Source: Bacteroidia bacterium (GTDB taxonomy: Bacteria > Bacteroidota > Bacteroidia > NS11-12g > UBA9320). Taken from it: a stretch of DNA of 64,000 bases. The notes beneath the pieces were generated by a model, which had not been told where the DNA came from, did not search any database, and worked only from the letters and a program-made list of their open reading frames with translations. Of the stretch, positions 1,711 through 17,741 are shown one piece after another; the stretch's first letter is position 1, and every line of letters begins with the position of its first letter. Location of the stretch: assembly GCA_018402155.1 (NCBI GenBank), contig JAGYJG010000001.1:942198-1006197 (forward strand). The letters run 5' to 3'. A program made the position numbers and the translations under genes.

Positions 1711-1835
1711 ATGAACAAACTATTGAAAATAATTTTTACAATTGTCAACAAATACATGTCTGCCGACAAGCAATGTGAGAAGAAAACTTTGAAGAGTCTC
1801 CTCCAGCTGCGGATAAACGTTTGGATTGGTTGTAA
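1711..1835 (+). pseudogene. Relic of a short ORF, copy 1 of 3
   Basis: This copy matches 18056-18169 and 21866-21991 over about 110 bases. In the frame with the most conservative substitutions its end reads ENFEESPPAADKRLDWL and then stops at the same place as the other copies. Against the copy at 21866 this one lacks a base near 1735, which shifts the ATG at 1711 out of that frame, and it has an in-frame TGA just before the conserved tail. The shifted frame is itself open for 43 codons (1711-1842), so coding in that frame cannot be fully excluded. No known family is recognised. Confidence 0.45.
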
Positions 1836-1925
1836 GGTTTAATTACTTTTGGGGGAAATAGAAATGATACGTATAACCAGTTCACAATGTTTCATCGTAT
1901 ACCTTTTTAATGAGACACGTTTTCT

Positions 1926-1987
1926 ATAGTGTACATAGTGGAAATATGCACAATAGGGGGTATGTATTGTGCATATACTATTGTTGG
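1926..1987 (+). repeat. attC-like boundary element E2, short hairpin type
   Basis: TATGCACAATA (1945-1955) and TATTGTGCATA (1965-1975) pair perfectly around a loop with GGGGG. ATAGTGTA (1926-1933) and TATACTAT (1974-1981) pair outside it, and GTTGG follows at 1983. Related hairpins close the two other relic units, near 18317 and 22106. No AAC-ending arm complementary to the unit's own start was found, unlike the long elements. Confidence 0.55.
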
Positions 1988-2082
1988 TGATAACCAAAAG
2001 AAAGAAAAGTAGGCGAGTTAGTGATTGCGAAAAAAGCAGTATATTAGCTGACCGAACCATTCGCTTGTAAACGAATGCAGCT
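1983..2082 (+). promoter_or_regulatory. Type I unit leader, copy 1 of 5
   Basis: About 100 bases are shared nearly identically with 5041-5142, 10526-10627, 15609-15710 and 17729-17830, starting at GTTGGTGATAACC. The block carries a TATATTAG element about 18 bases after TTAG, a possible promoter core, and a hairpin CATTCG/CGAATG. It is followed by a variable tail and, in three copies, by a second hairpin GTTCCG/CGGAAC (2152-2170 here) shortly before the start codon. The function is inferred from its constant position upstream of the first gene of each type I unit. Confidence 0.6.
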
Positions 2083-2191
2083 TTTTCTGACAGTTAAAAA
2101 CCAGCATTAAAAACTGCAAGAACTTAATCAACTCTAGCAGTGATTTTTAATGTTCCGCAGAAAACGGAACGGTTTAAACAAATTAGAAAAA

Positions 2192-4345
2192 ATGAAAAAA
2201 ACAATTTTAAGAAAAATGGTGCTGCTAGTAGGGCTAGCATTGCTCGGATTTACAACGTATGGACAGGATGAAAATGATGGGGAGTCATATTTTGATTCCA
2301 GCAAACTATCTGGTAATGCACCTGCTTTAATGACGGAGTGTTACTCACAAGGGATAAAACAAAGTTTTGTATTACACTTCGCAGAAGAAAGTGCTCTTGT
2401 CCTCGATTTACACGAAACACCCGTTTATCCTATCACAATTCAATCGTCTAGCGATATTATCCTAAGTAGTATATACTCTAAGAATAATGTAATTCCGTTA
2501 CCCAAGTTCTCTAACTATAAGGTGAAATCATTTAATAGCTGCGGTGACGAGGTCGTTTTATTAGATGTAAGTACTACTCCTGTAAGCATAGGAGGTTCTT
2601 TTGGGCTACCCCAGAAGCTATACGACCAGCTAGCGAAAAATAGCACTGACGGTCAAGATAGAACTATCCTTGATTATCTGAGTAGTAACGAAGTACTGAA
2701 TAAAGTAGAAAAACTCTTTGTGCTCCAAAACTACTATTTCGAAGGTGATTTAGCTTTAGCTAAACTACCAACAGATAATGATGATATTCCCACTGAGCAT
2801 GGTGGAGGTCCCTTTGGTCATTTAGGTGACAGTATTATATTGGGTGTAGAAGATGGGTTTGGCAGACTAGGAGATATTATAGGTGCAGTTGTATGGGCAG
2901 ATCCTACCAGAAACTGCTTATGTAAGGCTACTTTTCCATACGCCCAAGGTGATCACTCTATAAAAGAACGTAAGCATTTGAGAAATCCAAGTGATCCAAA
3001 TTCATTCAACTGGTTTGAGCACAAATATACGTGGGGCAAGCACTACTGGCCTTCTAGTACAGGAGACCATAAAGTGTGGTGGTGGAATGACTGGAACAAA
3101 GGCGCTATCCGTAATCATGAAGCTGACATTTATATGAAGCGAGTAGGCTCTGATAAAGCAGGAAGTTGGAAAAGACCTGACGCTACAAATGCCGCTTCAC
3201 CTTATCTGACACACTTAGAATACAACCTGAACTGTGAAAGTAAAGAATACCAAAAAGATGACTGCATGTGTGAAGATAGAGTATTATACGTAGGAGCTAA
3301 TTATACTACTCAGATCAATGCAGGTGGAGGAAAATTAAATTGTTTTGGATGTGGCAAAGGTTATGCGTGGCAAGCTAGCGGTGAAGATTGGGCTTTTCTA
3401 ACTAAATCTTCGCAAAAAACGGGAATGGGCATTCTGGATGGAGGAAGGTTAAAAGTAGTTGCTTGGGATCAAGTATCACCTAATACCGATTGGGATAGGG
3501 CTTGGTTTGATTTAGCTAAAAACCTGCTAATTACCGCAGGAAAAGTAGCATTAGGTGACAGCACAGCGTGGGCAGATAGCGGGACTATCTCACGAGTAGT
3601 AGATAACGTGAAAACACTAGCAACATCTAGCCCCGTCGTCGGGGTTTCTGGGCGGGCAGCGAGTGCAAACGGTGCTCTAATATCTGGAGGTGCCGGAACA
3701 GCAGGCTACTCAGTAAACCTATTACCCAATGACCCTACTTGGATTACGATTCATTCTTTTGCCTCTCACTATCTCACTGGTCATACCAAATATGAAGCAG
3801 ATGTGCGAATCAATAGTTATGATTGGCTAGCTGGGTTTCTAGACTATAAGAAGACGGACGAATGCTGCACAGAAGAATTTTTCAATTGGGTGGTTGGTGT
3901 AAATGATATTGCTCAAAATGAGTTAGCACTTAGACAAGTCAATCAATTCATAAAATCTAAAAATCCAAGATTAACACCACAGTTTCCTAATCTAGTTGAT
4001 CTAGAGTTTACTGGCCACAATGAATTTTGTCATCTCATACCTTTCAGCACAATTGGCCCAAAATACGAGGGCAATTTATGCCCACCAGAGTATTTTAGCA
4101 GTTTTGCACTGACTGCAGGAGGTAATACACCTGTAGATTCAGACATACTTCCTATCGGCACACAGTACCAAGTTGCAAATATGCTAGATGGTGTGGTGGC
4201 TGATCAAGGTAGCACCAACTATGAAATGACTCTGGGTAATCTAAAGAACCAAGTTTTACAGAATGGGGCTTTAAGGCACGGCTACTACTCTCTAATGATA
4301 ACCGTAAACAATGAAGTTTACTATATTAAAATATTGAAACAATGA
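2192..4345 (+). CDS. Large secreted protein, paralogue of 10697-12742
   Basis: 717 residues from the ATG at 2192. An in-frame ATG at 2150 lies in the leader hairpin that is conserved upstream of unrelated genes, so it is rejected. The signal peptide MKKTILRKMVLLVGLALLGF ends near TTYGQ. The whole protein aligns with the gene at 10697. Shared features are a GLPxKxYD segment near residue 145, a Cys cluster ECLCKA/DCMCEDRV/CFGCG in the middle, GEDWAFLT, and DECCTEEFFNWVVGVN near residue 570. The last 60 residues (YYSLMITVNNEVYYIKILKQ) resemble the final strand of T9SS sorting domains, which is suggestive only. No enzymatic motif is recognised. It overlaps the next lipoprotein gene by 4 bases, and the two form a conserved pair. 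Confidence 0.75.
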   Translation: MKKTILRKMVLLVGLALLGFTTYGQDENDGESYFDSSKLSGNAPALMTECYSQGIKQSFVLHFAEESALVLDLHETPVYPITIQSSSDIILSSIYSKNNVIPLPKFSNYKVKSFNSCGDEVVLLDVSTTPVSIGGSFGLPQKLYDQLAKNSTDGQDRTILDYLSSNEVLNKVEKLFVLQNYYFEGDLALAKLPTDNDDIPTEHGGGPFGHLGDSIILGVEDGFGRLGDIIGAVVWADPTRNCLCKATFPYAQGDHSIKERKHLRNPSDPNSFNWFEHKYTWGKHYWPSSTGDHKVWWWNDWNKGAIRNHEADIYMKRVGSDKAGSWKRPDATNAASPYLTHLEYNLNCESKEYQKDDCMCEDRVLYVGANYTTQINAGGGKLNCFGCGKGYAWQASGEDWAFLTKSSQKTGMGILDGGRLKVVAWDQVSPNTDWDRAWFDLAKNLLITAGKVALGDSTAWADSGTISRVVDNVKTLATSSPVVGVSGRAASANGALISGGAGTAGYSVNLLPNDPTWITIHSFASHYLTGHTKYEADVRINSYDWLAGFLDYKKTDECCTEEFFNWVVGVNDIAQNELALRQVNQFIKSKNPRLTPQFPNLVDLEFTGHNEFCHLIPFSTIGPKYEGNLCPPEYFSSFALTAGGNTPVDSDILPIGTQYQVANMLDGVVADQGSTNYEMTLGNLKNQVLQNGALRHGYYSLMITVNNEVYYIKILKQ

Positions 4346-4938
4346 GAAATACTATTTTTATAGCTACAATTTTCATCCTTGCAGGGTTATCGTCCTGCAA
4401 GGAAGAATGTAAAACCTGTCCAGATGGATATGGATTAGTAAATGACGAATGCGAATGCTTAGGTTATATAAACGGTGGAGAATGTTATAGTTCTATAGAA
4501 AATTTAATCACGCCTTATGGTGGTGATATTAGTGGAGATTTATATTATAGTTTCGATTCTAACACTTCTGATAATTTTGTATTTAATTCATCGCCGCAGC
4601 TAATAGCAATTACTGGTTGGGGTGAAACAGGAGTAAATTCAGAGTCGGCAGAAATAAGTTTAGTAGAAAATAAAAAGGCTATTGCTCAGCAAACATTAAT
4701 CACAACTGTCAAACGACTGAAAGGCCAGGACTCTGCTTGGTTTGAGCCTTTTAGGAATGAAAACGGTTTTGGGCCAGGCAGAATTGCTTTTGCTGAATCT
4801 AAAGTAATTGATGGCAAAACTTGCTATCTAAGGCCTTATCTAGTTCAACTGGATAGCCGCCTGTATCGTCTTCATCTGAAATGGGAAACTGAAGCAGGTG
4901 AGGTGGTGGATATTTGCACAAAAATATTCCGTAAATAA
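4342..4938 (+). CDS. Cys-rich lipoprotein, partner of the upstream secreted protein
   Basis: 198 residues. A lipoprotein signal peptide ends in the lipobox LSSC, so the protein should be lipid-anchored. After the acylated Cys comes CKTCPDGYGLVNDECEC, an EGF-like spacing of cysteines shared with the lipoprotein at 12745. The C-terminal half shares the motif CYLRPYL and a closing strand CTKIFRK with that paralogue. The ATG overlaps the stop of the 717-residue gene, so the two are translationally coupled. The same two-gene order recurs in another unit, so the products may act together, for example as secreted factor and anchor or immunity protein. That role is inference, and no named family is recognised. 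Confidence 0.7.
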   Translation: MRNTIFIATIFILAGLSSCKEECKTCPDGYGLVNDECECLGYINGGECYSSIENLITPYGGDISGDLYYSFDSNTSDNFVFNSSPQLIAITGWGETGVNSESAEISLVENKKAIAQQTLITTVKRLKGQDSAWFEPFRNENGFGPGRIAFAESKVIDGKTCYLRPYLVQLDSRLYRLHLKWETEAGEVVDICTKIFRK

Positions 4939-4942
4939 GATA

Positions 4943-5053
4943 GGCTAATCACCAACACTATGTATACGTAATGCCGCTTATGTACACGCTGTAGCAGGGC
5001 TTGTTCGCCGTGGCGAAGCGGCACTACGCATACACTCACCGTTGGTGATAACC
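4943..5053 (+). repeat. attC-like boundary element E3
   Basis: The outer arms GGCTAATCACCAAC (4943-4956) and GTTGGTGATAACC (5041-5053) pair over nine or more bases. The inner arms TGTATACGTAATGCCGC (near 4961) and GCGGCACTACGCATACA (near 5019) pair over 17 bases, with two wobble pairs. The tip carries TTCGCC/GGCGAA. The left arm is also the complement of this unit's own start at 1983. Confidence 0.75.
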
Positions 5054-5142
5054 AAAAGAAAGAAAAGTAGGCGAGTTAGTGATTGCGAAAAAAGCAGTAT
5101 ATTAGCCGACCGAACCATTCGCTTGTAAACGAATGCAGCTCT
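5041..5142 (+). promoter_or_regulatory. Type I unit leader, copy 2 of 5
   Basis: It is nearly identical to the leader at 1983 as far as GCAGCT, then diverges into an AT-rich stretch that leads to the ATG at 5211 without the second hairpin. It shares GACATTGATTTTA in that tail with the leader at 10526. Confidence 0.6.
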
Positions 5143-5210
5143 GGACTAAGGTATACCATCGACATTGATTTTAATTTTTAGAATATTTAACACATTTAAA
5201 AACAAAAACA

Positions 5211-5915
5211 ATGAGAAAAACAATCTTAATCACAGCTTTTCTAGTTTTTACATTCACTAGCAAAGGTCAAGTAAAAGTAGATCCAAACAACAATGTATTA
5301 GTTGGCCAGCACTGGGGGCAAAACGCCTTCAAAGAGTTTGATGTACGTGGTGAAATGTTTGTAAGCCACAGTCCACGGAATGGAGTGCCTGGATGGGGCT
5401 ACGTTGGTGCTTGGTTCACCAACCACAGTTATCAAGTAGGTGGAAGTACCGTTTACAGGCCAATTTTTGAACCGCAATGGGGAAATAACTATTGGCTTGG
5501 TAACGCAAGCTCACCGTTTTGGAGAGTATATGCTAACGAAATGCATGCAATGAGTTTTGTGAATATCTCCGATGAGCGTTTAAAAACAAATTTTATGCCT
5601 GTTTCTGGTTCATTATCACGGCTTATGAGCATTCAACCGTATAGGTATGATTTTATATTTACACCTGATGAGAAAGTAGATGAAACAACCAATCAAGAGG
5701 TAGAAGCTGCTTCCAAAAACCATATCGGATTCAAGGCACAAGATTTAATGAAAGATTTTCCACATCTCGTAAAATATGATGAATCTGAAGACCAATACTC
5801 AGTCAATTACATTGGTCTAATTCCTGAGTTAGTATCTGCATTGCAAGAGCAAAACAGAAAAATACAAGAGTTAGAAGCCAAAATAGTTGAGTTACAATCT
5901 AGAGTAGGCAAATAA
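5211..5915 (+). CDS. Secreted protein with S74 peptidase (endosialidase chaperone) domain
   Basis: 234 residues. Signal peptide MRKTILITAFLVFTFTSKG. The first 100 residues are rich in Trp, Gly and Asn, with strand-like spacing. From about residue 117, SFVNISDERLKTNF begins the S74 intramolecular chaperone domain, with the Ser of SDERLK as the expected autocleavage nucleophile. This is followed by PYRYDF, HIGFKAQDL and YSVNYIGLIPELVSAL. The end (QEQNRKIQELEAKIVELQ) is a trimeric coiled coil typical of such domains. In phage tail spikes and bacterial adhesins this domain trimerises and then cleaves itself off. It is the first of four genes in its unit. The role of the short N-terminal part is unknown. 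Confidence 0.85.
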   Translation: MRKTILITAFLVFTFTSKGQVKVDPNNNVLVGQHWGQNAFKEFDVRGEMFVSHSPRNGVPGWGYVGAWFTNHSYQVGGSTVYRPIFEPQWGNNYWLGNASSPFWRVYANEMHAMSFVNISDERLKTNFMPVSGSLSRLMSIQPYRYDFIFTPDEKVDETTNQEVEAASKNHIGFKAQDLMKDFPHLVKYDESEDQYSVNYIGLIPELVSALQEQNRKIQELEAKIVELQSRVGK

Positions 5916-5928
5916 TAATAGTTTAGTT

Positions 5929-6537
5929 ATGAAAGTTTTTATACGCTATAGAGGTATTTGTTTAGCCTTGTTTGCTCTACTTTTTTGCTTCCCTTTGGTT
6001 GTTAAAGCTAAAGATTCTATTTATTTAAAACGTTCTGATCATTCTACGTTTTTAGAAATGGGAGGCAATGCAGTTATATATTCGTTTAATTATGAGTATA
6101 AACTAAAAGAGCTAAAAAACAGCTATCTTGTCCAAAGCATTGGTTTGCAAGTGCCTGACCTAGGCACACGTAGGACTTACCAGAATGGAGGTAAGCAAGT
6201 TAACCAAAGAAGATTGGATATGGCATTTTTCCCTCTAAGGTTAGGTTGGATAAGTCATAAAACTAGTAAAAATCATCTAGAAGCGGGAATCGGTGCAACG
6301 TATTATACAGCAAGTTCTCCAATATCCTCTATATCCTTTTCAGACAATATGGAGATTCAATTAGCCTGGGGCAATACGGTGTATTTCTCACCCAACTTGG
6401 GCTATAGATTCACAGGAGATAATGGGCTACTAGTACGGGCCACATTGAGTCCTATTGTTAGTAGATTTACAGACCCCAATTTTCAGTTTTACGGAGGAGT
6501 TTCTATCGGATATAATTTTAGAAAGAAGAAAATATGA
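5929..6537 (+). CDS. Small outer-membrane beta-barrel-like protein
   Basis: 202 residues. The signal peptide covers about residues 1-27 (GICLALFALLFCFPLVVKAK). The rest alternates hydrophobic and polar residues in short strands with aromatic girdle residues (FLEMGGNAVIYSFNYEY, HLEAGIGATYY, AWGNTVYFSPNLGYRF), and ends with FYGGVSIGYNFRKKKI. This pattern fits an 8-stranded barrel in the outer membrane. No specific family is recognised. It lies 13 bases after the S74 gene and overlaps the following lipoprotein gene by 4 bases, so it is part of the same operon. Confidence 0.65.
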   Translation: MKVFIRYRGICLALFALLFCFPLVVKAKDSIYLKRSDHSTFLEMGGNAVIYSFNYEYKLKELKNSYLVQSIGLQVPDLGTRRTYQNGGKQVNQRRLDMAFFPLRLGWISHKTSKNHLEAGIGATYYTASSPISSISFSDNMEIQLAWGNTVYFSPNLGYRFTGDNGLLVRATLSPIVSRFTDPNFQFYGGVSIGYNFRKKKI

Positions 6538-7427
6538 AACAGAAGTATTCAATCATTTTTGTGGTTTTATTCGCGGTTTTTATACTAAACGGCTGCAGCA
6601 AGGAGTGCTGCGACCCTACCAATCCAGAGTGTGAGAACTATGATCCTTGTCACAATAGCCAACCTGCCAATGCCGATTTTATCATTAATGAGCAGATTAA
6701 TGCCACGGATTTTTATTACGAAACGGATACGATCTATCGGGTAAACGGTACTCTCTTTAAACCTAAGCACGACGCGGATAGCATTACGTGGATATTGGGG
6801 TCGGAGACTGTACACCAAAAAGAACTGTTTAGAAAAGGGTATCCTCTTGGCACAATAGAAGTCACCATGATTGCCAAAATGAATCCTTCATCTTGTCTTA
6901 CAGAAGAACAACGAATAGATACGATGACTAAGCAATTCTTTGTATTACCTTCACCAAGTGTTATCGATAGTAATGCCTCCAAATCTTCACCTTGGTGGGG
7001 TACGTGGGAAGGGTACAATACTGATGAGCCAAACGATAGGTTCACCGTTTCTTGGGGGTATATCTCTGGATATAATGCTAGTAATACTCGCGTAGAAATG
7101 GACTTTGTGGGATTACCAAAAGGAATAAAAAAACAAATTCCATTTTATACATTGTCAACCTCTAGATCCTATGGTATAGAGGTTGGTGTAGGATATAAGG
7201 CTGCAAAGATGTATAACATTACCCAGAATAATTGGACCTATGGTGGCTTTGCATTGGAAGGCATATCCTATCGCAATAAAAATGAAGTAACCATTGAGTA
7301 TTCCTATAATAATACTCCTTACCAACGATGGCTAAATGGTGAAGACAAACAAGTTGAGCCAATAGTAAGAGTAAATAAAACTTTCAAGGCAACAAAAATT
7401 TCAAATGAAGTATTAACAGAAGAATAA
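6534..7427 (+). CDS. Predicted lipoprotein with PKD-like region
   Basis: 297 residues. The lipoprotein signal peptide ends at FILNGC, followed by a Cys-rich start (SKECCDPTNPECENYDPC). Residues 50-140 (ADFIINEQINATDFYYETDT, WILGSETVHQKE, TIEVTMIAK) have the look of a PKD or Ig-like domain. The C-terminal half contains SPWWGTWEGYNTDEPND and KQIPFYTLSTSRSYGIEVG, with no family recognised. It overlaps the barrel gene by 4 bases and precedes the T9SS protein by 4 bases. The four-gene set suggests a surface complex, which is inferred from the operon alone. Confidence 0.65.
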   Translation: MKQKYSIIFVVLFAVFILNGCSKECCDPTNPECENYDPCHNSQPANADFIINEQINATDFYYETDTIYRVNGTLFKPKHDADSITWILGSETVHQKELFRKGYPLGTIEVTMIAKMNPSSCLTEEQRIDTMTKQFFVLPSPSVIDSNASKSSPWWGTWEGYNTDEPNDRFTVSWGYISGYNASNTRVEMDFVGLPKGIKKQIPFYTLSTSRSYGIEVGVGYKAAKMYNITQNNWTYGGFALEGISYRNKNEVTIEYSYNNTPYQRWLNGEDKQVEPIVRVNKTFKATKISNEVLTEE

Positions 7428-7431
7428 AATT

Positions 7432-10425
7432 ATGAAAAAATATTTAATATCTGGGTTGCTAGTTTTTAGCACCCTCATAAACACACAAGCGCAGTGCTGG
7501 GATCCACAAGTACCCCACACGATTACTACGGATTGGCGTGCTGCCAATACAAGCAATACTTGGGATTGGACACAGGAACTTTTTACTGACTTTTACATCA
7601 AAAATAGAACGAACCCCGTATCTAGGTACTCTCCATTTTGGACACCTCAAAGCTCTACAGGAACTAATTTATTACTGACCGATTTCCAAGTATATGTAAA
7701 TAGAAATGACAAAGACTTTCATCCTGAAGATGGTTGGGAGCTTTTGATCAAGAATTTTGGTGAATTCTCAATTGACGGATCTAAAGATGTCGCTAATCCA
7801 TTTTTTGCATTGTACAACCGATATACTGGCAAAGTCAGGGCGTTTTTACTAGTTGCAGATATACCTACCTCTTCACAAAATGGAGCTTTATTAAAGGCTC
7901 AATTTGGTGGAGGTAGATTTACTGCACTATGGCAGCATATGAAACCAATTGGTCAAGCTGTGGAGAGCTTTGACAGGGATTTGTATGCAGAACTAAACAA
8001 TCCATATTCAAATGAAATAGACCGATGGCTATTTTCAGAATTTGTAGTGGCGTATGATCCTTGTACTTGTGCAGATTTAGGCGATCCAACTGCATTGCCG
8101 TTTATTAATTTTGAGTATTTCTTGGTTTCAAGTGCAGATATCAATGCCACTATTGATGGAACTATTACAGAACAGGTAAGTCAAAGCGGGAGTCCAACAA
8201 AAAGTAACCCGTCTTTTGCACTGAACGATCTTAAGGATGTAAAAAAAGCAGTAGAAGCGGGACAAAAAGGATACAAAACATGGGGAAAGTACAAAACTTG
8301 GTACAATACGCAACTCAATAACTTTACAGATTCTATGTATCGCGATCAGCTTTGGCAAGGTTTGGAGGCATCCAAAGAACTGAGCCAAGAATTTTATGAA
8401 GACGTATTGCAAGACCTAATAGGCCAGACAACGTGCAACTACAATGACTTTATGAATGGGAATTACAATATAGACCCTACCGCCTTCATGACACCAAAAG
8501 ACAATACACTGCTAAACAAGAACTATTCTTCGCTAAAAGCATTTGCTAGCATATTACCGTATGTAGGTGCAGCGTTATCCGTATTTGATCTATTGGTAGA
8601 TGATGGAGGCACCACAATGCCTGCACCAAAAGGGCCTACAGTATTTGATGTAAGCTTGAAATTAGATGGCAGCATTGATCGCGTTAATGGAATACAAGAA
8701 CATCAATTTTTTGCACCTGGTTTTACCACTAACTCTTCTCAATACAATTGGATACCCACTTATAATAATATTTTGGGTGTTTTCAATGTACTAGAGCTTC
8801 CCGATTTTGAATATTTTGAAATAAGGCCAACGGTAACAAACCTTACAGAAAGTGTAGCCGACTTAGACAATCAGTGTATGCGAAATTATAGTGATTTCCA
8901 TAATCTAGATGGTGCAAATGAGGTAATATTTAAGCAATATAAGCCGAAGGAAAATTTGAAGTATGTATTGAATCCTGCCTCAAATCTTGAAGTCGAGTCA
9001 GTAGAAGCAGCCATTGTATTGGAGTATTTGGGGCAGGATGACCTATTCATTACAAAACCATCACAGTTTAACTCAGTAAAAGCAATACCTTATCATCAGA
9101 ATATATTCTATCCAGATCAAAACGATACTTTTTATCATGCAACTTGGTCTGGTGGTGACGACATAAGACAATTCACCCCAACAATCATTCACACAGCCAC
9201 TTCTGGAGGGTCACTAGCTTCAGGCACCTACGAAAATGAAGGTGGTGAGCTGAGACGTTTGACGGATAATGTGCCTGTGGCAACCTTAGTAAGAGGTCTG
9301 GAGCCAGGTAGAAAAAGTGCGGCGGTTGGTAGAATAAAGGATATCACGGAGCATACTGACTTAACGTATGACATTGCTACTCCTGGTTATCCAAATGTAG
9401 ATTCATCAGAAATTCAATTTCGAACTGATTATCTACCCAATACGTGTTTTGATAAACTAAGCTTTACTGTTTTGGGTAATGATAATTTTGGGAAAGTTTA
9501 CGCAAAAGTAGTAGTAAGACTGCGGCATAAGAATCAGCCAGAATTAGACCCAGTTACTTTGATTTTTTCTTATGACCTGACACCGAAATTGCAAACAGCA
9601 ACAAAAAGACCTGAAACGGGCAGCTATTCTGCTACCGTTTGGGGTAGAGATTGGACGACTGATCCTAAAAGGCCATATAAATGTGGTTCAACTTTTAGTT
9701 TCACCTCAGCAGAAATACAGAATTACCGTTACTTAGAATCTATTACGTTAAACAGTACCCCTTATAACTGGGATTTCTTCAAGCCGCATAATCTAACTTA
9801 CAATGGTGAACCAAATTTAACTGCTATCGGCACTATTACTGTTCCAGACAATTTCACTATCTCACCCAATACGATTTTAAGGGCAGGTGGAGCAATTGAT
9901 ATTGGTGAGAATGTTCAAATTGGCTTTGGAAGTCAAATTTATTCTGAAGTGAAGATAGATGTTGATAAAGGAACTGAAATGGAACATAGTGTAGTTTTGG
10001 AAATTGTAGGCAAAGGCTCTATTAAATATGATTGTTCCGATTACAATTATCAATCACTAGAAATGAATTCAGATGAAATCGGTACATTTTGTGGTTCTCA
10101 GATATATAAACAAAGAGCATTGTTTAAAAGAGAGCCTTCAGACGAAAACAATTTAGACACAACGCTAAACAGTCTGTCGAAATTGGATTATAAAATTTAC
10201 CCAAATCCCAATAATGGTATTTTTGAATTACAATTCACAACGTCCAATGAAGATATTTGGTTAGAGGTTTTAGATGCCTTTGGTCGAGTTATTCGAGAGG
10301 TAAATAAACCAACAGGACTTAATACAGTAACCATAGATATTAGTGGTAGTCGCAGTGGGGTTTATTTCATCAAAATTGCTGGTAGTAATAGCCCTCACCT
10401 AGTAAAAAGAGTAGTGAAGCATTAA
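7432..10425 (+). CDS. Large secreted protein with T9SS type A sorting domain
   Basis: 997 residues. Signal peptide MKKYLISGLLVFSTLINTQA. The N-terminal region is Trp-rich (CWDPQVPH, WDWTQELFTDFY, YSPFWTPQ). A middle segment near residues 255-335 is helical (DLKDVKKAVEAGQKGYKTWG), and the rest is mostly beta. The last 80 residues are a clear T9SS type A domain: YKIYPNPNNGIFELQF, VLDAFGRVI, SGSRSGVYFIKI and VKRVVKH. Export across the outer membrane by the Por system with C-terminal processing is therefore expected. No catalytic motif is recognised. It is the last gene of its unit, ending 5 bases before the boundary element. Confidence 0.75.
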   Translation: MKKYLISGLLVFSTLINTQAQCWDPQVPHTITTDWRAANTSNTWDWTQELFTDFYIKNRTNPVSRYSPFWTPQSSTGTNLLLTDFQVYVNRNDKDFHPEDGWELLIKNFGEFSIDGSKDVANPFFALYNRYTGKVRAFLLVADIPTSSQNGALLKAQFGGGRFTALWQHMKPIGQAVESFDRDLYAELNNPYSNEIDRWLFSEFVVAYDPCTCADLGDPTALPFINFEYFLVSSADINATIDGTITEQVSQSGSPTKSNPSFALNDLKDVKKAVEAGQKGYKTWGKYKTWYNTQLNNFTDSMYRDQLWQGLEASKELSQEFYEDVLQDLIGQTTCNYNDFMNGNYNIDPTAFMTPKDNTLLNKNYSSLKAFASILPYVGAALSVFDLLVDDGGTTMPAPKGPTVFDVSLKLDGSIDRVNGIQEHQFFAPGFTTNSSQYNWIPTYNNILGVFNVLELPDFEYFEIRPTVTNLTESVADLDNQCMRNYSDFHNLDGANEVIFKQYKPKENLKYVLNPASNLEVESVEAAIVLEYLGQDDLFITKPSQFNSVKAIPYHQNIFYPDQNDTFYHATWSGGDDIRQFTPTIIHTATSGGSLASGTYENEGGELRRLTDNVPVATLVRGLEPGRKSAAVGRIKDITEHTDLTYDIATPGYPNVDSSEIQFRTDYLPNTCFDKLSFTVLGNDNFGKVYAKVVVRLRHKNQPELDPVTLIFSYDLTPKLQTATKRPETGSYSATVWGRDWTTDPKRPYKCGSTFSFTSAEIQNYRYLESITLNSTPYNWDFFKPHNLTYNGEPNLTAIGTITVPDNFTISPNTILRAGGAIDIGENVQIGFGSQIYSEVKIDVDKGTEMEHSVVLEIVGKGSIKYDCSDYNYQSLEMNSDEIGTFCGSQIYKQRALFKREPSDENNLDTTLNSLSKLDYKIYPNPNNGIFELQFTTSNEDIWLEVLDAFGRVIREVNKPTGLNTVTIDISGSRSGVYFIKIAGSNSPHLVKRVVKH

Positions 10426-10429
10426 GAAA

Positions 10430-10538
10430 GGCTAATCACCAACACTATGTATACGTAATGCCGCTTTTTATCGCAGCAGTAGAGCTTGTTCGCTGTGGCG
10501 AAGCGGCACTACGCATACACTCGCCGTTGGTGATAACC
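10430..10538 (+). repeat. attC-like boundary element E4
   Basis: The outer arms are GGCTAATCACCAAC (10430-10443) and GTTGGTGATAACC (10526-10538). The inner arms TGTATACGTAATGCCGC and GCGGCACTACGCATACA are the same class as E3. Only the tip differs (TTTATCGCAGCAGTAGAG against the E3 tip). The left arm complements the start of this unit at 5041. Confidence 0.75.
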
Positions 10539-10627
10539 AAAAGAAAGAAAAGTAGGCGAGTTAGTGATTGCGAAAAAAGCAGTATATTAGCCGACCGAAC
10601 CATTCGCTTGTAAACGAATGCAGCTCT
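10526..10627 (+). promoter_or_regulatory. Type I unit leader, copy 3 of 5
   Basis: The same 100-base block as at 1983. An in-frame TTG-type start at 10568 would translate this leader and is rejected, because the block is conserved upstream of unrelated genes and the signal peptide begins at 10697. Confidence 0.6.
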
Positions 10628-10696
10628 GAACCAAGGTTAAAAACCACCGACATTGATTTTATTTTTTTAAACATTAACACACAAAAAAACAAAACA

Positions 10697-12742
10697 ATGA
10701 AAAACAAAATTTTAACGAAAATGGTAGTACTAGTAGGACTAGTATTGCTAAGTATGACAGGCTTTGGACAAGAAGACGTAGACAACAGTGAGCCGATTTT
10801 AGATCCTGAGCCACGATTTGAGTGTAATTTTATTGGTATCGACCAAGAGTTTATTCTTCACTTCAAAAACGAGTCAGCACTTTCTATTGAATTTAACGAA
10901 ACTCCAAATCAACCGTTGCAAATTCTGGACAAAGACAATAATATTGTGGCAGTGCTTGGGAGTAAGAACAATGCAGTTCCTTTAAAAACGTTTCAATACT
11001 ATGCGATACAAGGGGTAAATAGTTGTGGCGAGGTTGGTGTGTTTTATACTTTCAACACAATCCCAAAAATAAACCACGAAGGTTTTGGTCTGCCTGCCAA
11101 AATCTATGATGAATGGACTACGCATTTTAATTCGGAAAGTACGGCTAGAACAATTGACTTTTTAAGGGCTAACGAAAATTTATCTGCACTAGAAAAGTTA
11201 TTTCTAATTCAGGAGTATTATTACGACGGAGATTTAGCAATAGCCCACAGAGACGGCAATGGTTTAGACAATGATACCCCACCTCTATTAGGTGGATTAC
11301 TGGATTCCATTTTACTCAATGACGAAATATTTTGGGATCGTATCAATGACGATATTGATATAGTCGTTTGGGGAGAAGAAACCAATGACTGCCACTGTAA
11401 AACAACTTGGGGTAAAGTTGGTCCAGTAAACTTACATACTGAATTTTTAAAAACCCACAACACCCCTTACCGCTGGTTTGAACACTTAGTTGACCATCCA
11501 AGCAAAGTACACAAAGGAGGAAGTAATCGCTACACGGAATATCGTAATGCGACTAAGGGTGCAGCGAAAATACTTGACGGCAAGATGTATATGAAGGGAA
11601 GCCATTGGGATACGTACAGTCAAAAGTTCCCTGATCCTGCCCAAGCTACTTCTGCGTATAGGACATATATAAAATATAATTTAGCATGTGAGAATGCACA
11701 AGAACAAGATGATAATTGTATGTGCAATGATAGGGTGCTAGAATATACTGCCTCTTATGTAACATCATTATCTACCAATGCCAAAGAAAATTCGCCTTGT
11801 TTTTTGTGTGGCACGGGTTCTTGGGCTGCGTATGCTCAGGCAGAGGATTGGGCTATACTCACTCTTAGTTCAAAAAAACAGGGCATAAAAATAGTAGATG
11901 CAGGTAGAGCCTATTCAAAGTCTGAAAAACACACAACTGCGAATAAAGATTGGAATAATAAAATCATAGATCTTGCGGCTTCGGTTACAGCAATTGCGGT
12001 GACTGGCGGCACATCTGCATTGGTAGACTCCGCTCTTATAAAAAGGTCAGCAGAAGATATAAAATACCTTATCAATAATCCACCAAACTATGGTGGAGGT
12101 AGCACCTATAATTCTGGTGGCAATGAACTACTTGGTGGCTGTGGTAGTGAATACTCAGTTACACTAAGGCCAAATGACCCGACAAATATTATGATACATA
12201 GTTATGCAGGTTTTGATCTCGGTGGTCATACTAAATGGGAATCGACTGCACACATACAAAGTGATGACTATCTAGCTGCATACATGGATTATAAAGAGAC
12301 AGACGAATGTTGTAATGAAGAGGTATTTAATTGGGTAATTGGTGTAAATGGTGCTCAGCAAAACGAAGAAGCCTTAAGATGTGTAAATAGTTTTTTCCAA
12401 TCTCGCCCAGTGAATATAAATCCTAAGTACCCAAATCAACCTTTCTTATATTGGACGGGTAATCACGAGTGGGGTTTTGAAAGATCCGATAACTGTCCTG
12501 ATGATTATTTTGAAGCTTTTGTAGTAAAGTATGATGACGACATTCTTCCAATTGGTACCGAATATTTCATTTCATCTATACTCACTGGAAATGTCTTAAA
12601 AACAGCAAAAACCTCTACTGTTTTAACATTAGGACAACTTAAACAGCAAATAGCAAGTGATAGTAGCTTTCGACATAGCTTTTACTCACTTAAGCTAGTA
12701 AGTAATAATGAAGTGGAGTACTTAAAGATTTACATTGACTAG
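10697..12742 (+). CDS. Large secreted protein, paralogue of 2192-4345
   Basis: 681 residues from the ATG at 10697. Signal peptide MKNKILTKMVVLVGLVLLSM ends near GFGQ and is clearly related to those at 2192 and 15817. It aligns end to end with the 2192 product: GLPAKIYDEW, DCHCKTTW, DNCMCNDRV, CFLCGTGSW, AEDWAILTLSSKKQG, TDECCNEEVFNWVIGVNG and a closing FYSLKLVSNNEVEYLKIYID. The paired cysteines suggest disulfides, as expected for an exported protein. No enzyme family is recognised. The next gene, a Cys-rich lipoprotein, starts 2 bases after the stop, reproducing the order of the first unit. Confidence 0.75.
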   Translation: MKNKILTKMVVLVGLVLLSMTGFGQEDVDNSEPILDPEPRFECNFIGIDQEFILHFKNESALSIEFNETPNQPLQILDKDNNIVAVLGSKNNAVPLKTFQYYAIQGVNSCGEVGVFYTFNTIPKINHEGFGLPAKIYDEWTTHFNSESTARTIDFLRANENLSALEKLFLIQEYYYDGDLAIAHRDGNGLDNDTPPLLGGLLDSILLNDEIFWDRINDDIDIVVWGEETNDCHCKTTWGKVGPVNLHTEFLKTHNTPYRWFEHLVDHPSKVHKGGSNRYTEYRNATKGAAKILDGKMYMKGSHWDTYSQKFPDPAQATSAYRTYIKYNLACENAQEQDDNCMCNDRVLEYTASYVTSLSTNAKENSPCFLCGTGSWAAYAQAEDWAILTLSSKKQGIKIVDAGRAYSKSEKHTTANKDWNNKIIDLAASVTAIAVTGGTSALVDSALIKRSAEDIKYLINNPPNYGGGSTYNSGGNELLGGCGSEYSVTLRPNDPTNIMIHSYAGFDLGGHTKWESTAHIQSDDYLAAYMDYKETDECCNEEVFNWVIGVNGAQQNEEALRCVNSFFQSRPVNINPKYPNQPFLYWTGNHEWGFERSDNCPDDYFEAFVVKYDDDILPIGTEYFISSILTGNVLKTAKTSTVLTLGQLKQQIASDSSFRHSFYSLKLVSNNEVEYLKIYID

Positions 12743-12744
12743 TT

Positions 12745-13386
12745 ATGAAATATTTATCAATTATACTTCTTGTCATCCTTACAAGCCTATTGGCTTGTAA
12801 GGATGATTGTTTAACCTGTCCTGATAATGAAGCCGTTGTTAATGGTGAGTGTCAGTGTATTGGCATTCAATTTATAGGAAATTGTATGAGTAAGCGTGAG
12901 GCATTTCAAAAAAAGATACCGAGGGGAATTAGTGTTGAGATGCAACCATATTATTCTGAATCGATGGATTGTAATGCTCATTTTGACTTTAATAATCAAC
13001 CTTTATTTATATACTTAAGTGAAATAACCGAATATGATAATAGAGTGAGTGCTGTCATAGCTTTTCAAACCGAAGCTAGACCAACAAACACTTATTTCGA
13101 AAAAGTCTATTATTCAGGGTTAGAGTCCGAAATCGGTTCAAGTAACTTTGATTCATTGTCTTATGATTGGCCATCTGCCTATAATTATAATGGATTTGTA
13201 TACGTTGGAGAAGATGCCGTAGGAACTTCAAATCCAGAGCATTACACCACTATCATAGATGGACAAATGTGCTATTTGCGTCCTTACATCAAAATTTTGG
13301 ACAAGGATTATATACGAGTAACTTTCAGATATGTAACTGTGGATGAAGAAGTGAAAGCTGAATGTGTAAGACTCTTTCACAAATAA
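12745..13386 (+). CDS. Cys-rich lipoprotein, paralogue of 4342-4938
   Basis: 213 residues. The lipoprotein signal peptide ends in the lipobox LLAC. It is followed by CLTCPDNEAVVNGECQC, with the same cysteine spacing as the 4342 product, and a C-terminal half with CYLRPYIKILDKDY and CVRLFHK. Identity to the paralogue is highest at these two blocks, while the centre has diverged. It is the second gene of a two-gene unit and ends 4 bases before the boundary element. The function is unknown; pairing with the large secreted protein is the main clue. Confidence 0.7.
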   Translation: MKYLSIILLVILTSLLACKDDCLTCPDNEAVVNGECQCIGIQFIGNCMSKREAFQKKIPRGISVEMQPYYSESMDCNAHFDFNNQPLFIYLSEITEYDNRVSAVIAFQTEARPTNTYFEKVYYSGLESEIGSSNFDSLSYDWPSAYNYNGFVYVGEDAVGTSNPEHYTTIIDGQMCYLRPYIKILDKDYIRVTFRYVTVDEEVKAECVRLFHK

Positions 13387-13390
13387 GAAA

Positions 13391-13500
13391 GGCTATCACC
13401 AACACAAAATAAAACGCAATGCCGCTCCGCCTCGGCGGACGTGCTGTAAGCCTGCCCCGCAGGCTTGCAGCACGTGCGTTTATTCGAACCGTTGGCGGTC
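13391..13500 (+). repeat. attC-like boundary element E5
   Basis: The left outer arm GGCTATCACCAAC (13391-13403) matches the complement of this unit's own start (10526). The right side reads GTTGGCGGTCATCC (from 13491) because the next unit is type II, so pairing across the junction is limited to CCAAC/GTTGG plus scattered bases. The inner arms AATAAAACGCA and TGCGTTTATT pair with one bulged A. The tip has CCGCCTCGGCGG and CGTGCTGTAAGCCTGC/GCAGGCTTGCAGCACG hairpins. Confidence 0.75.
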
Positions 13501-13700
13501 ATCCGAAGAAAGATTTTTTCTGCATAAATTTGTAGAAAAAGTAAGGACAGAAAGAACTAAAACGGCCTAAAAATGAAAAGGCAAAACAAATTAGAAACGT
13601 TCTAATCTGTCAAAATGAAGAAGACCCAAAGGTGAAACGTGGCAACTAAGCACCAAGCCGACAGAAAGGAGTTAGCCAAAACAGTGACCGACTGATTTCG
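13491..13700 (+). promoter_or_regulatory. Type II unit leader, copy 1 of 2, with promoter core
   Basis: About 210 bases starting GTTGGCGGTCATCCG are strongly conserved with 22106-22316, including about 65 identical bases in the centre-right part. TAAATTTG at 13525-13532 is an exact match to the Bacteroidota -7 element TAnnTTTG, and the other copy has TAGATTTG at 22140-22147. The remaining 160 bases form a long untranslated leader with no conserved ORF, possibly a structured RNA. In both units it precedes a gene for a small Cys-containing secreted protein. Confidence 0.65.
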
Positions 13701-13731
13701 GTTAGTTTAACATTTAAAAAAACAAGAAAAA

Positions 13732-14139
13732 ATGAAAAAGACAATTTTATTTACACTAGCATTATTTTTAACGATTTTCTCCTACAGCAAAACGATTGTA
13801 ATCCATAAAAAAGGAGGTAAACCGTGCAAAGATAAACCAGCCGATGTTTGCTACAGAGAGGTAGATGTTGAAGATTCTGAAAGACGCTACGAACAATCTT
13901 GTAAAGGTCGTGGACTGAATTCGTGTCCTAAAGTTGGGATAGTTACAGTAGGTTCAATAGCATTCGATGTAGACAATTTCGTTGTTAATGTGGAAAACGC
14001 CATATTAGCTGGGTCGACCTCTGCAAATGGGGTAATCACAGATACTAATGGTGCAGTGGTAGCACACTATACGTGGACTGGAACAGTTAATATTGATGGC
14101 AACCTCGAATACGACATCATAATTGACGATGAGGTATAA
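13732..14139 (+). CDS. Small secreted Cys-containing protein
   Basis: 135 residues. Signal peptide MKKTILFTLALFLTIFSYSK. The mature start KTIVIHKKGGKPCKDKPADV is basic, followed by cysteines in VCYRE, EQSCKGRG and NSCPKVG. The second half is acidic and beta-like, without Cys. It resembles the small secreted proteins at 22343 and 22722 in size, signal peptide and position, immediately after a type II leader and before a large secreted protein. This arrangement recalls the small exported peptides paired with 6-bladed-propeller proteins in Bacteroidota, but no named family is recognised. Confidence 0.6.
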   Translation: MKKTILFTLALFLTIFSYSKTIVIHKKGGKPCKDKPADVCYREVDVEDSERRYEQSCKGRGLNSCPKVGIVTVGSIAFDVDNFVVNVENAILAGSTSANGVITDTNGAVVAHYTWTGTVNIDGNLEYDIIIDDEV

Positions 14140-15502
14140 ATTACTTATTTTCATAACCTTGCCCATAATTACTTTTGGGCAAGGTTTTATTTTGGATACT
14201 ACTATTCTTTTTAATAACATAGTTGTAGATGAAATCAACAAAATTGACAATATCTATGACCAAAATGATTTTTATATTCTTACAAATGATGGTGAAGTTG
14301 ATATAAAAAACATCGTCTCAAAAGAAAGTTGGAATTTAGGAAAATCAGATTACATTAGTTTTGGAAGCATTGCCGTTGTGAAAAAAACAATATTGTATGA
14401 ACGAAATAGTAAACTGGTCAAAAAGTCTAATAGAAAAAGCATAGCTTTTCTTCCTAAATCACTAGATCGAAAAAACGATATTTTAATAAAATATGCCTAT
14501 CAAGATGAAAAGTATCTGTATTTGTTTACATACTATAATAACAATGCAGAAACGGAACTTGGTCACGATGTGATTCATTGTTTCAAAATTTTAAGAAAAA
14601 ATCGCCACATAGTATTAAACAAGAAAATAGATATCGGTAAGGAGATAATACTAGCACCTTTTAATCAGCAAATAATAACCTTTACTGGTAATCGGTTTTT
14701 AATTGCTTCGCCTGTAACAACTGAAATTACTTCAATTGATAAAAATCTTGAGATTACCAAAAAGTTTCATTTAGATACAACTTTGAGCTTAGCAAACTCT
14801 GTCTCGTTTAATAAAGTTTTTCCAGATAAAAATGCTGGATTTTACTTATACAAACCACGGGACGTGATTTATCATTACAACAACTCAGAGTTGATTGATT
14901 TAAAAGTTATAAGTAAAATAATTGCTCTCAATGACTCCCTAGTTCTAGTTAATTATAGGTTAAAACATAGAGACATTTATTTAATAGAAATCATAAATGT
15001 AAACTCAAACAAGGCAATTTGGGAGAAACAAATAAACCATACGGGTGAAGAGTTGTCGCCATTATGTTGGACTAGAAGAGCATATTTCTCCTCCGATGAT
15101 GAATTGTGTCTTATAAGTCTGTACGAACCTGATGATAGTACCATTCTATATAAGGCAAAAATTTACTCCTTTAATCATAACGTAAAAATAAGTAAAGACA
15201 TCTTTTCGGAATATCAATTACTAAGTCCAGAGCAGGTCAAGGTTGATTTATCCCTTTATTCAGGAGTTGTATTGGCTGATGAATATTTCTGTAAAGGTTG
15301 TTATTCAAATTATGGTACTGGAGAGGGAGTATTGGTAATCAAAAAATATGATTTCCGAAGTACTGCGAGATTAAATGCAGATTATTCATACTTCATGCGA
15401 AACTGGGCAATTTCTGGTGAGTTGTGTTTCGTAGATTCTGAGACATATAATCACCTTAAGAATAAAATGAGTCCAAATGTCTTATATCCTTTTGAAGAAT
15501 AA
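14129..15502 (+). CDS. Secreted protein, possibly beta-propeller-like
   Basis: 457 residues from the ATG at 14129, which overlaps the previous gene by 11 bases. A TTG at 14123 is a less likely start. Signal peptide MRYKLLIFITLPIITFGQG. The mature protein is a series of strand-rich segments (DQNDFYILTNDGEVDI, YAYQDEKYLYLFTYY, ITFTGNRFLIASP, YSGVVLADEYFCKG), compatible with a propeller. It is the counterpart of the larger gene at 23095, which has the same position in the other type II unit. The N-terminal Cys motif of that paralogue is absent. The function is unknown, and a partnership with the small upstream protein is inferred from overlap and recurrence. Confidence 0.6.
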   Translation: MRYKLLIFITLPIITFGQGFILDTTILFNNIVVDEINKIDNIYDQNDFYILTNDGEVDIKNIVSKESWNLGKSDYISFGSIAVVKKTILYERNSKLVKKSNRKSIAFLPKSLDRKNDILIKYAYQDEKYLYLFTYYNNNAETELGHDVIHCFKILRKNRHIVLNKKIDIGKEIILAPFNQQIITFTGNRFLIASPVTTEITSIDKNLEITKKFHLDTTLSLANSVSFNKVFPDKNAGFYLYKPRDVIYHYNNSELIDLKVISKIIALNDSLVLVNYRLKHRDIYLIEIINVNSNKAIWEKQINHTGEELSPLCWTRRAYFSSDDELCLISLYEPDDSTILYKAKIYSFNHNVKISKDIFSEYQLLSPEQVKVDLSLYSGVVLADEYFCKGCYSNYGTGEGVLVIKKYDFRSTARLNADYSYFMRNWAISGELCFVDSETYNHLKNKMSPNVLYPFEE

Positions 15503-15510
15503 GAAAAGAC

Positions 15511-15621
15511 AAACCGCCAACACAAAATAAAACGCAATACCGCTCCGCCTCGGCGGACGTGCTGTAAGCCTGCCCCGCAGGCTTGCAGCACGTGCGTTTA
15601 TTCGAACCGTTGGTGATAACC
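15511..15621 (+). repeat. attC-like boundary element E6
   Basis: The left arm AAACCGCCAAC (15511-15521) is the complement of this unit's own type II start GTTGGCGGT (13491), not of the next unit's type I start at 15609. The inner stem and tip are almost identical to E5. This is a key comparison: the outer arm follows the unit while the inner stem is shared. Confidence 0.78.
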
Positions 15622-15710
15622 AAAAGAAAGAAAAGTAGGCGAGTTAGTGATTGCGAAAAAAGCAGTATATTAGCCGACCGAACCATTCGCTTGTAAACGA
15701 ATGCAGCTCT
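15609..15710 (+). promoter_or_regulatory. Type I unit leader, copy 4 of 5
   Basis: The same block as at 1983, followed by a tail with the GTTCCG/CGGAAC hairpin at 15777-15795. The tail and hairpin are nearly identical to those of the units at 1983 and 17729. Confidence 0.6.
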
Positions 15711-15816
15711 GAACCAAGGTTAAAACCAGCATTAAAAACTGCAAGAACTTAATCAATTCTCGCAGCAATTTTTAATGTTCCGCAGAAAACGGAACGGTTT
15801 AAACAAATTAGAAACA

Positions 15817-17112
15817 ATGAAAAAAATAATTTTAACAAAAATGGTAATGCTAGCGGGACTGGTTATTGCCTTTATGTCTTGTAACGACATTGAGCCAGCC
15901 AGTCCAAATGAAGCAGTAAAATGGAAAATTCCATACAGTCTCGTTGGAGAATACGCTTTGGCATACAGAACTAGTCAAAGTTCCGACATTAAAAACAAAA
16001 GTAGTGAGAATAGCATCTTCTCTATTTGTGAGATAGACTCATTCGTAGACAAAGATGATCTTACTGCAATGTACGTCATTAACTTTTGTAACGATAGCGG
16101 TTGGGTCATACTAAGTGCGGATTACAGAATGGAACCAATAATGGCTCACAATGATGAGGGTAGTTTTGGTCACGGAGATATTCCTGGCGGCCTAGCTATG
16201 TGGATATTGGCAAGTGTAGAGTCAATCGAGGATATAAGAGAGCATGATGTTAAGCACCCTTCAGCAGATATTGCTTGGACAGTATCCTTAAATGATTACG
16301 GTCTAGATGACGATATCCCATCACGTCCTGATATTGGGATAAACGGCGGACTTGGACCTGGTGAGCTAGACCCATGTCTATTAGGAATTGTCTCTTCAAC
16401 ATATACTAAAGGACCATTATTAAATACCACTTGGGGACAAGAGTGTACATATAATGATGATGTTCCCAATTGCACAACAGGTGATTGTGGTAAAATGCCT
16501 GTTGGTTGTGTTGCAACCGCATGTGGTCAGATAATGCAGTATTGGGGTCATCCACAAGCTACTTTTGACTTTACGGCTATGTCTTTGAATAATGGTAATA
16601 GTGAAGTTGCCAAGCTATTAGAAGATTTTGGTGATGAAGTTAACATGAACTACCAATGTGACGGTTCCGGGTCACAGAGCAACGATGCAAAAAAATGTCT
16701 TGATAACGTCTATAACTATCACGATCCAGAATTTGTTCCATACAATTATGCAACGCTTATGGGTGACTTACAGAAAGATTGGCCAGTGTATTTGGATGGA
16801 TGTAGAATTATAAATGTAAACGATAGAAACTGGTGGCAGTTTTGGATTCCTCGTGTTGAATATGATGGCTGTCACGCTTGGGTATGTGATGGATATAAAT
16901 ATTCATACCGTAAATGTCCAAATAAACCTACCAAGAAATGGGGACACCTACTTCATATGAATTGGGGATGGCATGAGGTAAACCCCAATACTCTTGTTCC
17001 TGATTCATGGATGCGTGATTTCAATGGTTGGTATCGTTATAATGACTGGACAATTCCAAACGGGAGAAATTATCAATTTGCTCAGGATATGATTTATAAC
17101 ATTGATAGATGA
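15817..17112 (+). CDS. C10 family (streptopain/SpeB-type) cysteine protease lipoprotein
   Basis: 431 residues from the ATG at 15817. The in-frame ATG at 15775 lies in the leader hairpin and is rejected. The signal peptide ends in the lipobox FMSC, so the protein is a lipoprotein. Residues 40-130 form the Spi-type propeptide (YVINFCNDSGWVILSADYRM, PIMAHNDEG). The catalytic domain has the nucleophile Cys near 231 in PVGCVATACGQIMQYW, the catalytic His near 352 in GCHAWVCDGY, and the conserved Trp in LHMNWGWHEV. C10 enzymes are papain-fold proteases made as zymogens. Extra cysteines (QECTYNDDVPNCTTGDCGK) are unusual. The 171-residue lipoprotein that overlaps the end of the gene is a candidate inhibitor, since C10 genes often sit beside propeptide-like or other inhibitors. 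Confidence 0.9.
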   Translation: MKKIILTKMVMLAGLVIAFMSCNDIEPASPNEAVKWKIPYSLVGEYALAYRTSQSSDIKNKSSENSIFSICEIDSFVDKDDLTAMYVINFCNDSGWVILSADYRMEPIMAHNDEGSFGHGDIPGGLAMWILASVESIEDIREHDVKHPSADIAWTVSLNDYGLDDDIPSRPDIGINGGLGPGELDPCLLGIVSSTYTKGPLLNTTWGQECTYNDDVPNCTTGDCGKMPVGCVATACGQIMQYWGHPQATFDFTAMSLNNGNSEVAKLLEDFGDEVNMNYQCDGSGSQSNDAKKCLDNVYNYHDPEFVPYNYATLMGDLQKDWPVYLDGCRIINVNDRNWWQFWIPRVEYDGCHAWVCDGYKYSYRKCPNKPTKKWGHLLHMNWGWHEVNPNTLVPDSWMRDFNGWYRYNDWTIPNGRNYQFAQDMIYNIDR

Positions 17113-17624: not shown

Positions 17625-17628
17625 GAAA

Positions 17629-17741
17629 GGCTATCACCAACACAAAATAAAACGCAATGCCGCTCCGCCTCGGCGGACGTGCTGCAAGCCTGCCCCGCAG
17701 GCTTGCAGCACGTGCGTTTATTCGAACCGTTGGTGATAACC
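17629..17741 (+). repeat. attC-like boundary element E7
   Basis: The outer arms GGCTATCACCAAC (17629-17641) and GTTGGTGATAACC (17729-17741) pair with one mismatch over 13 bases. The inner arms AATAAAACGCA/TGCGTTTATT pair, and the tip hairpin CGTGCTGCAAGCCTGC/GCAGGCTTGCAGCACG is perfect. This is the most regular element in the array. Confidence 0.8.

Follow-up and report, generated by a model that had tools for sequence, protein, structure and literature searches.

Chromosomal (sedentary) integrons combine a tyrosine recombinase encoded beside an attI site with a series of palindromic attC sites that all point the same way and have complementary R''/R' boxes and a GTT core; their cassette boundaries lie at the core, a cassette comprises its 5' core and the left arm of the attC at its end, and several arrays together with recombinase-less clusters may be present in one genome. 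Integron recombination on single strands is generally accepted to have arisen when the recombinase IntI acquired its additional domain I2, and the domain was reported to be necessary for cassette capture (PMC7790495). Integrons were described as very rare in Bacteroidetes, where the only complete one named is that of Salinibacter ruber M1 (PMC9024848). Two further layouts are known for exported proteins with a small partner, i.e., the secreted bacteriocin and immunity protein Fab1/Rfab1 of Bacteroides fragilis, with an orphan immunity gene known for Rfab1 (PMC8406203), and exported C10 proteases with an adjacent lipoprotein or periplasmic staphostatin-like inhibitor on mobile DNA (PMC2873492). 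In the present work, a stretch of 64,000 nucleotides (nt) of Bacteroidia bacterium (NS11-12g; UBA9320; GCA_018402155.1, JAGYJG010000001.1:942,198-1,006,197), hereafter the window, was analysed. It was found to contain two gene pairs, A and B, each encoding a large secreted protein followed by a lipoprotein, within an integron-like array.

The pairs are probably carried as multi-gene cassettes of a chromosomal integron-like system and may encode an effector with its immunity protein; a probability of about 0.65 is given to this joint statement, which is weighted towards the anatomy. The integron anatomy is very probable as judged from the sequence, and the effector/immunity role is tentative, at slightly less than even odds. 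The genome comprises 2.49 Mb in 10 contigs; contigs are given as C1, C3 and so on, compared genomes as G-numbers and extracted loci as L-numbers.

Cassettes and recombination sites

Every gene block between 1.9 and 24.6 kb of the window was found to be flanked by attC-like sites. These are long palindromes in which the R'' and R' boxes are complementary and a GTT core is present (Table 1). The boundary repeat has the form GGCTAATCACCAAC, followed by a hairpin of ~90 nt and then by GTTGGTGATAACC. The sites fold as single long hairpins, and the bottom strand was slightly more stable at most of them. The cassette start core was GTTRRYG, and each cassette would thus be made up of this core, its own leader and genes, and an attC-like palindrome at the end.

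Table 1. Coordinates of the pairs, cassettes and attI-like and attC-like sites (window positions unless a contig is named)
Feature	Position	Strand	Remarks
attI-like region	1820..1986	+	copy of sequence 3' of both intact integrase genes (92% identity, 168 nt); the gene itself is absent
Cassette W1: pair A	1983..5040	+	same cassette at C1:388778
Large secreted protein A, 717 aa	2192-4345	+	signal peptide, CxC/CC motifs; no family match
Lipoprotein a, 198 aa	4342-4938	+	N-terminal Cys-rich module; middle third divergent between copies
attC-like site	4948..5049	-	bottom strand folds; R1 120 bits, R2 74 bits
Cassette W2: S74-domain protein, beta-barrel-like protein, lipoprotein, 997-aa T9SS cargo	5041..10525	+	
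attC-like site	10435..10534	-	covariance models
Cassette W3: pair B	10526..13490	+	same cassette at C1:1418956, different neighbours
Large secreted protein B, 681 aa	10697-12742	+	
Lipoprotein b, 213 aa	12745-13386	+	
attC-like site	13395..13499	-	covariance models
Cassette W4: 135-aa secreted protein, 459-aa protein	13491..15608	+	
attC-like site	15513..15617	-	covariance models
Cassette W5: C10 (SpeB-type) peptidase 15775-17112, overlapping 171-aa lipoprotein 17109-17624	15609..17728	+	PF01640 86.9 bits, PF13734 39 bits
attC-like site	17633..17737	-	covariance models
Second attI-like relic, then GTTGGCGGTCATCC cassette start at 22106	22050..22109	+	83% over 60 nt
Last attC-like site of the window's array	24558..24644	-	R2 53.6 bits
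Pair A copies	C1:944389 (window), C1:388987		large A 100% identical at protein level
Pair B copies	C1:952894 (window), C1:1419124		
Pair C (third type) copies	C1:398551, C1:1424131		

The copies of pair A in the window and in a distant array (array 1) were found to be identical from exactly the GTT core (1983 in the window, L014:4778) through the large gene, with identity resuming at 4863 and running through the attC, and to have unrelated neighbours on both sides in the two arrays, which argues that the pairs are multi-gene integron cassettes. The boundaries of pair B behave like those of pair A. An earlier note on this DNA had called the array mobile-looking; this description was borne out and exceeded by the presence of attC anatomy resembling recombination sites.

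Behind the intact recombinases of array 1 and of a further array (array 2), 211 nt were found to be 100% identical and to diverge directly past CATATACTGATGTT, which is the signature predicted for an attI with different first cassettes; a similar pattern is present in G018 and G004. In the window's array, the attI-like copy directly precedes cassette W1 with the junction at the GTT core, and the recombinase gene is absent. The region 1690-1860 of the window was considered as a truncated integrase and dropped, as only its last bases before attI were similar, in keeping with an attI copy. A separate recombinase 3'-end remnant with a 96% attI-like copy was seen at L028 ~5268-5622 (C1:1950.3-1950.6 kb), ~2 kb from a transposase-like gene, and the array model gave no match near this remnant.

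Among 14 informative cassettes, the R'' box was found to fit the cassette's own 5' core in nine, that of the next cassette in three and both equally in two, two boundaries that were 2 nt off having been corrected by hand. W4 is the clearest own-start case, as it begins with GTTGGCGGT and its own attC contains the R'' box ACCGCCAAC, although the right neighbour starts with GTTGGTGAT.

Sites were detected by covariance models. These took the place of simple palindrome searches, of which a strict version overlooked known sites and a more permissive version lacked strand specificity. The palindromes gave no match in Rfam. The first model was built from 12 sites of three arrays and contained 28 pairs, seven of them with compensatory changes. 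A larger set, drawn from at least seven genomes belonging to two families, comprised 21 diverse sites with their loops trimmed. In it, 82.5% of cells pair and the covariation score was 0.407, a value that none of 500 shuffles reached and for which slid structures gave 0.130 or less. Because these 21 sites had been collected with the first model, their alignment is biased towards the structure; the low slid controls and the new box pairs speak against an artefact. Strong matches in the genome were nearly all located in arrays, i.e., the window's array at ~C1:928.6-966.8 kb, array 1 at 391.7-405.5 kb and array 2 at 1402.5-1440.4 kb, the others being a small inverted cluster at C1:201-205 kb, a site at C3:5415 and an isolated site at C1:1820960.

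Gene conversion between arrays is also indicated by the sequence. Window 11079-12578 and 1983-4437 were found to be 100% (or nearly) identical to distant array copies with strongly diverged flanks, and these tracts are best read as gene conversion; they could conceivably be made by the assembly, but the copies carry distinct flanks. It is very improbable that the arrays are shuffled only by homologous recombination or gene conversion between repeats, with the palindromes acting as terminators or repetitive extragenic palindromic (REP)-like elements. The long identical tracts would be explained and the shared leaders would supply homology; however, the breakpoints lie exactly at GTT cores beside attI and attC, the R''/R' boxes covary with GTT kept, and the sites are clustered behind a recombinase in one orientation in two families.

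The array recombinase and its distribution

Arrays 1 and 2 each begin with an intact tyrosine recombinase of 372 amino acids (aa) (C1:386982 and C1:1389844; 97% identical), oriented along the array. The catalytic residues R, HxxR, GH and Y were found to be kept in the source genome (G000) and in nearly all relatives, together with the presence, in the array recombinases, of an N-terminal extension of ~100 aa and an IntI-like C-terminal SPLD/SPFD tail. The array recombinase scores 187 bits against the IntI model TIGR02249 (cut-off 265) and 198 bits against an XerA-like model (cut-off 220). Positions ~182-237 of TIGR02249, corresponding to I2 (patch II to the HxxR box), were skipped in every listed match of the order; the same gap was seen against V. 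cholerae IntI (2a3v) and IntI2, and the aligned relatives were found to carry a short YLFEGQ...S linker. With a score under the IntI cut-off and no I2, the recombinase was not filed as IntI, and the system was called integron-like. The recombinase tree, from which Xer sequences were left out, was unresolved at the base.

This Xer/IntI-like recombinase, encoded just upstream of attI, would presumably insert and excise cassettes between attI and the folded bottom strand of attC; we infer its action on folded attC, and the window's array would depend on the recombinases of arrays 1 and 2. Action in trans by a canonical IntI encoded elsewhere would suit an array without its own recombinase gene and is extremely improbable, because no gene of the source genome or of any of the 88 genomes of the order passes the TIGR02249 cut-off.

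The arrays share with chromosomal integrons each of the traits listed at the outset. They differ in that the recombinase has no additional IntI domain, scores below the cut-off and is encoded in the array direction, that the cassettes are often large and multi-gene with their own leaders, and that the host belongs to a Bacteroidota order. XerA/XerC-D and IS91-associated tyrosine recombinases have the same catalytic architecture and likewise no IntI insertion, but not the ~100-aa extension or the SPLD/SPFD tail, and to our knowledge they are not known to serve attC arrays. This resemblance favours a recombinase that acts on double-stranded sites like Xer, with the hairpins incidental or serving another role. 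Such an action is distinctly unlikely, as covariation is seen along the entire L stem and in the R boxes, which double-strand recognition does not need, and the C-terminal SPLD tail is IntI-like.

A recombinase homologue (E<=1e-50) was present in 25 of 58 genomes (source and relatives), and the second covariance model found sites in 24 of the 88 genomes of the order. In seven relatives (G031, G053, G033, G028, G037, G010 and G004), sites were found to follow the recombinase gene with the orientation expected, whereas one site of G008, 7 kb away, did not fit this pattern. Contig C64 of G028 contains an array of 11 sites that all have the same orientation. Sites next to the recombinase homologues of other genera and of another family contained different but complementary boxes, e.g., CCACAAC/GTTGTGG (G028), TGCCAAC/GTTGGCA (G033) and CGCTAAC/GTTAGCG (G053).

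Two plasmids were found to contain related sequences. On the Acinetobacter pittii plasmid NZ_CP054138.1 (L125 5001-7230), tet(X3) is accompanied by a tyrosine recombinase with 53% identity to that of the arrays and likewise no IntI insertion. The stop codon of tet(X3) is directly followed by a sequence (CTAACAAGCAGTTTTGCAATAGTGGGGC) nearly the same as the left arm of an attC-like site from G037, and farther along there is a stretch resembling the site that precedes L016:6956. It may be that the tet(X3) module derives from such a Bacteroidota integron as a fragment. The Persicobacter plasmid CP012852.1 (L126) contains a recombinase (6001-6906; 47.5% identical) and, 3.4 kb downstream, an attC-like L stem (10286-10394), so that the system may reach another Bacteroidota class.

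The secreted protein and lipoprotein pairs

The earlier note had proposed that 2192-4938 and 10697-13386 are paralogous two-gene units with overlapping or 2-base-spaced genes. Both statements were confirmed, as the large proteins A and B are 42% and the lipoproteins a and b 31% identical, and as the genes of pair A overlap via ATGA and those of pair B are separated by 2 bases. Large A was counted from the ATG at 2192; a further in-frame ATG is present upstream at 2150. The Cys motifs named there were also found to be correct, i.e., CMCxDR and ECCxEE in the large proteins (CMCEDR/CMCNDR and ECCTEE/ECCNEE in A/B) and CxTCPD..VNxECxC in lipoproteins a and b; the wider large-protein family keeps only CxC and CC (CLCSKK, YCCSKK). 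Neither the large proteins A and B nor the lipoproteins matched any family of Pfam or NCBIfam. Single-chain structure models from three-row alignments were poor, with a predicted local distance difference test (pLDDT) score of 50 for lipoprotein a and 33 for large B, and were unfit for fold searches.

At least six pairs were found in the genome, two each of types A, B and C, including both pairs of the window. The lipoprotein gene lies directly downstream of the large gene in seven of seven cases, the seventh being that of the congener G018, whose large gene is frameshifted. Both genes were found only in the source species and its congeners; G018 was the only match to the large proteins in the genome-contig collection, no relatives of them were found in the collections of viral contigs, phages and plasmids, and no copy of the leader was found among the viral contigs.

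Within a type, the two partners were found to differ in their divergence. Large A is identical to its copy at 717 of 717 residues and lipoprotein a at 80%, with a synonymous divergence (dS) of ~1.5 in the middle third; large B contains a 1.5-kb tract 100% identical to its copy, and lipoprotein b has dS >1.6. The proposal that the partners co-diverge therefore holds between types and fails within a type, where the large gene is homogenised and the lipoprotein middle diverges. A diversity-generating retroelement was set aside as the source of the variable middle without a formal test, as the differences are diffuse with dS ~1.5, the ratio of nonsynonymous to synonymous divergence (dN/dS) is purifying and the genes that were read included no reverse transcriptase.

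Lipoprotein genes were also found alone. An intact frame is present at C1:201594-202187, preceded by a 92-aa frame that retains only the last 45 residues of A, and its dN/dS of ~0.15 indicates purifying selection. Contig C110 of G018 contains two intact b-type lipoproteins in tandem, each behind a 28-codon large-gene tail, and further remains are a truncated relict in G005 and, at C3:5594, a broken solo lipoprotein.

The large Sec-exported protein would most likely be an antagonistic effector that acts outside the cell, with protection of the producer provided by the lipoprotein, which would be co-translated and located in the outer membrane. The earlier note had suggested a functional couple of a secreted factor with a surface anchor or a self-protection protein, to be judged by its occurrence in other genomes and weakened by either gene occurring alone. 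The coupling is supported by the adjacent lipoprotein of all seven large genes; the lipoproteins found alone count against an obligate anchor and not against effector and immunity, and self-protection is favoured over an anchor because intact lipoprotein genes occur without the large gene.

Fab1/Rfab1 resembles the pairs in having an exported protein without known domains, a small protein directly downstream and orphan copies of the downstream gene; the likeness is one of gene layout, and the effector and immunity activities of pairs A and B are predicted. The C10 protease/inhibitor pairs likewise join an exported protein to an adjoining small lipoprotein, and a C10 peptidase/lipoprotein cassette is present in the same array, but large A and B are not C10 peptidases and match no family.

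A lipoprotein that serves as surface anchor, receptor or secretion partner, holding the large protein on the outer membrane, is unlikely. It would agree with the strict coupling and overlap of the genes, with the N-terminal Cys-rich module next to the lipid anchor and with the type C large proteins, which are cargo of the type IX secretion system (T9SS); against it stand the intact lipoprotein genes kept where the large gene is gone, one of them (C1:201594) under purifying selection, and the strongly different lipoprotein middle beside a 100% identical partner. It is somewhat unlikely that the large proteins are secreted enzymes, adhesins or nutrient-binding proteins with a lipoprotein inhibitor or receptor rather than weapons. 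In favour of such a role, the neighbouring cassettes bear secreted proteases and T9SS cargo and large A and B match no toxin family, but solo lipoproteins are harder to account for in a nutrient pair.

Several observations weigh against multi-gene integron cassettes carrying effector and immunity genes. On the side of the anatomy, the recombinase does not reach the IntI cut-off and, as read from its sequence, is without the domain held necessary for cassette capture; three of the 14 cassettes pair better with the next core; and a size of 2-6 kb, the presence of several genes and the possession of separate leaders are unusual for integron cassettes. On the side of the role, no toxin domain was found in large A or B by Pfam or NCBIfam, and an invariant large gene with a variable lipoprotein within a type is not the usual toxin/immunity co-variation. 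The polymorphic-toxin pattern of a conserved N-terminus and a variable C-terminus was not seen, the large protein being conserved throughout within a type. A T9SS C-terminal sorting domain was found in type C (TIGR04183, 45 bits), and the tails of A and B gave no match to a T9SS sorting signal.

Neighbouring cassettes and the wider system

The C10 peptidase of cassette W5 was found to contain a Spi-type propeptide, and its leader (MFRRKRNGLNKLE) is common to large A. At 17729-18015 of the window, the C10 peptidase gene is repeated only as its leader and initial codons; an attI-like stretch follows this broken-off copy, as in a truncated cassette. The region 18344-20865 contains a MazG-like protein and a GIY-YIG/Schlafen-group-3 helicase/S24 protein within the array and is possibly a defence cassette. 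The first cassettes of array 2 (L026 4413-9066, C1:1391.4-1396.1 kb) contain a DUF1016-type nuclease (PADLOC PDC-S02, 430 bits) and a DUF262-type protein (Orf5/SspE/HEC-06-like), both candidate phage-defence genes. A WG-repeat open reading frame at L026 6315-6941 consists of four near-identical tandem units and is open on both strands.

No report of such arrays was found in the literature; subscription papers lay mostly outside the search, so a prior description is possible. A broader reading, for which the odds are about even, is that true integrons, complete with attI, folded attC sites and cassette shuffling, operate throughout a Bacteroidota order by means of a recombinase from which I2 was lost or always absent, that they exchange secreted weapon/immunity pairs and defence genes between arrays, and that a fragment of one took tet(X3) into Acinetobacter. 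Natural attC arrays with an I2-less recombinase make the I2 requirement directly testable. If such arrays recombine, either another feature, e.g., the N-terminal extension, does the job of I2, or I2 is not required. Searches keyed on the IntI domain would miss these arrays, and their cassettes disclose a pool of uncharacterised secreted-protein/lipoprotein pairs that would move as units.

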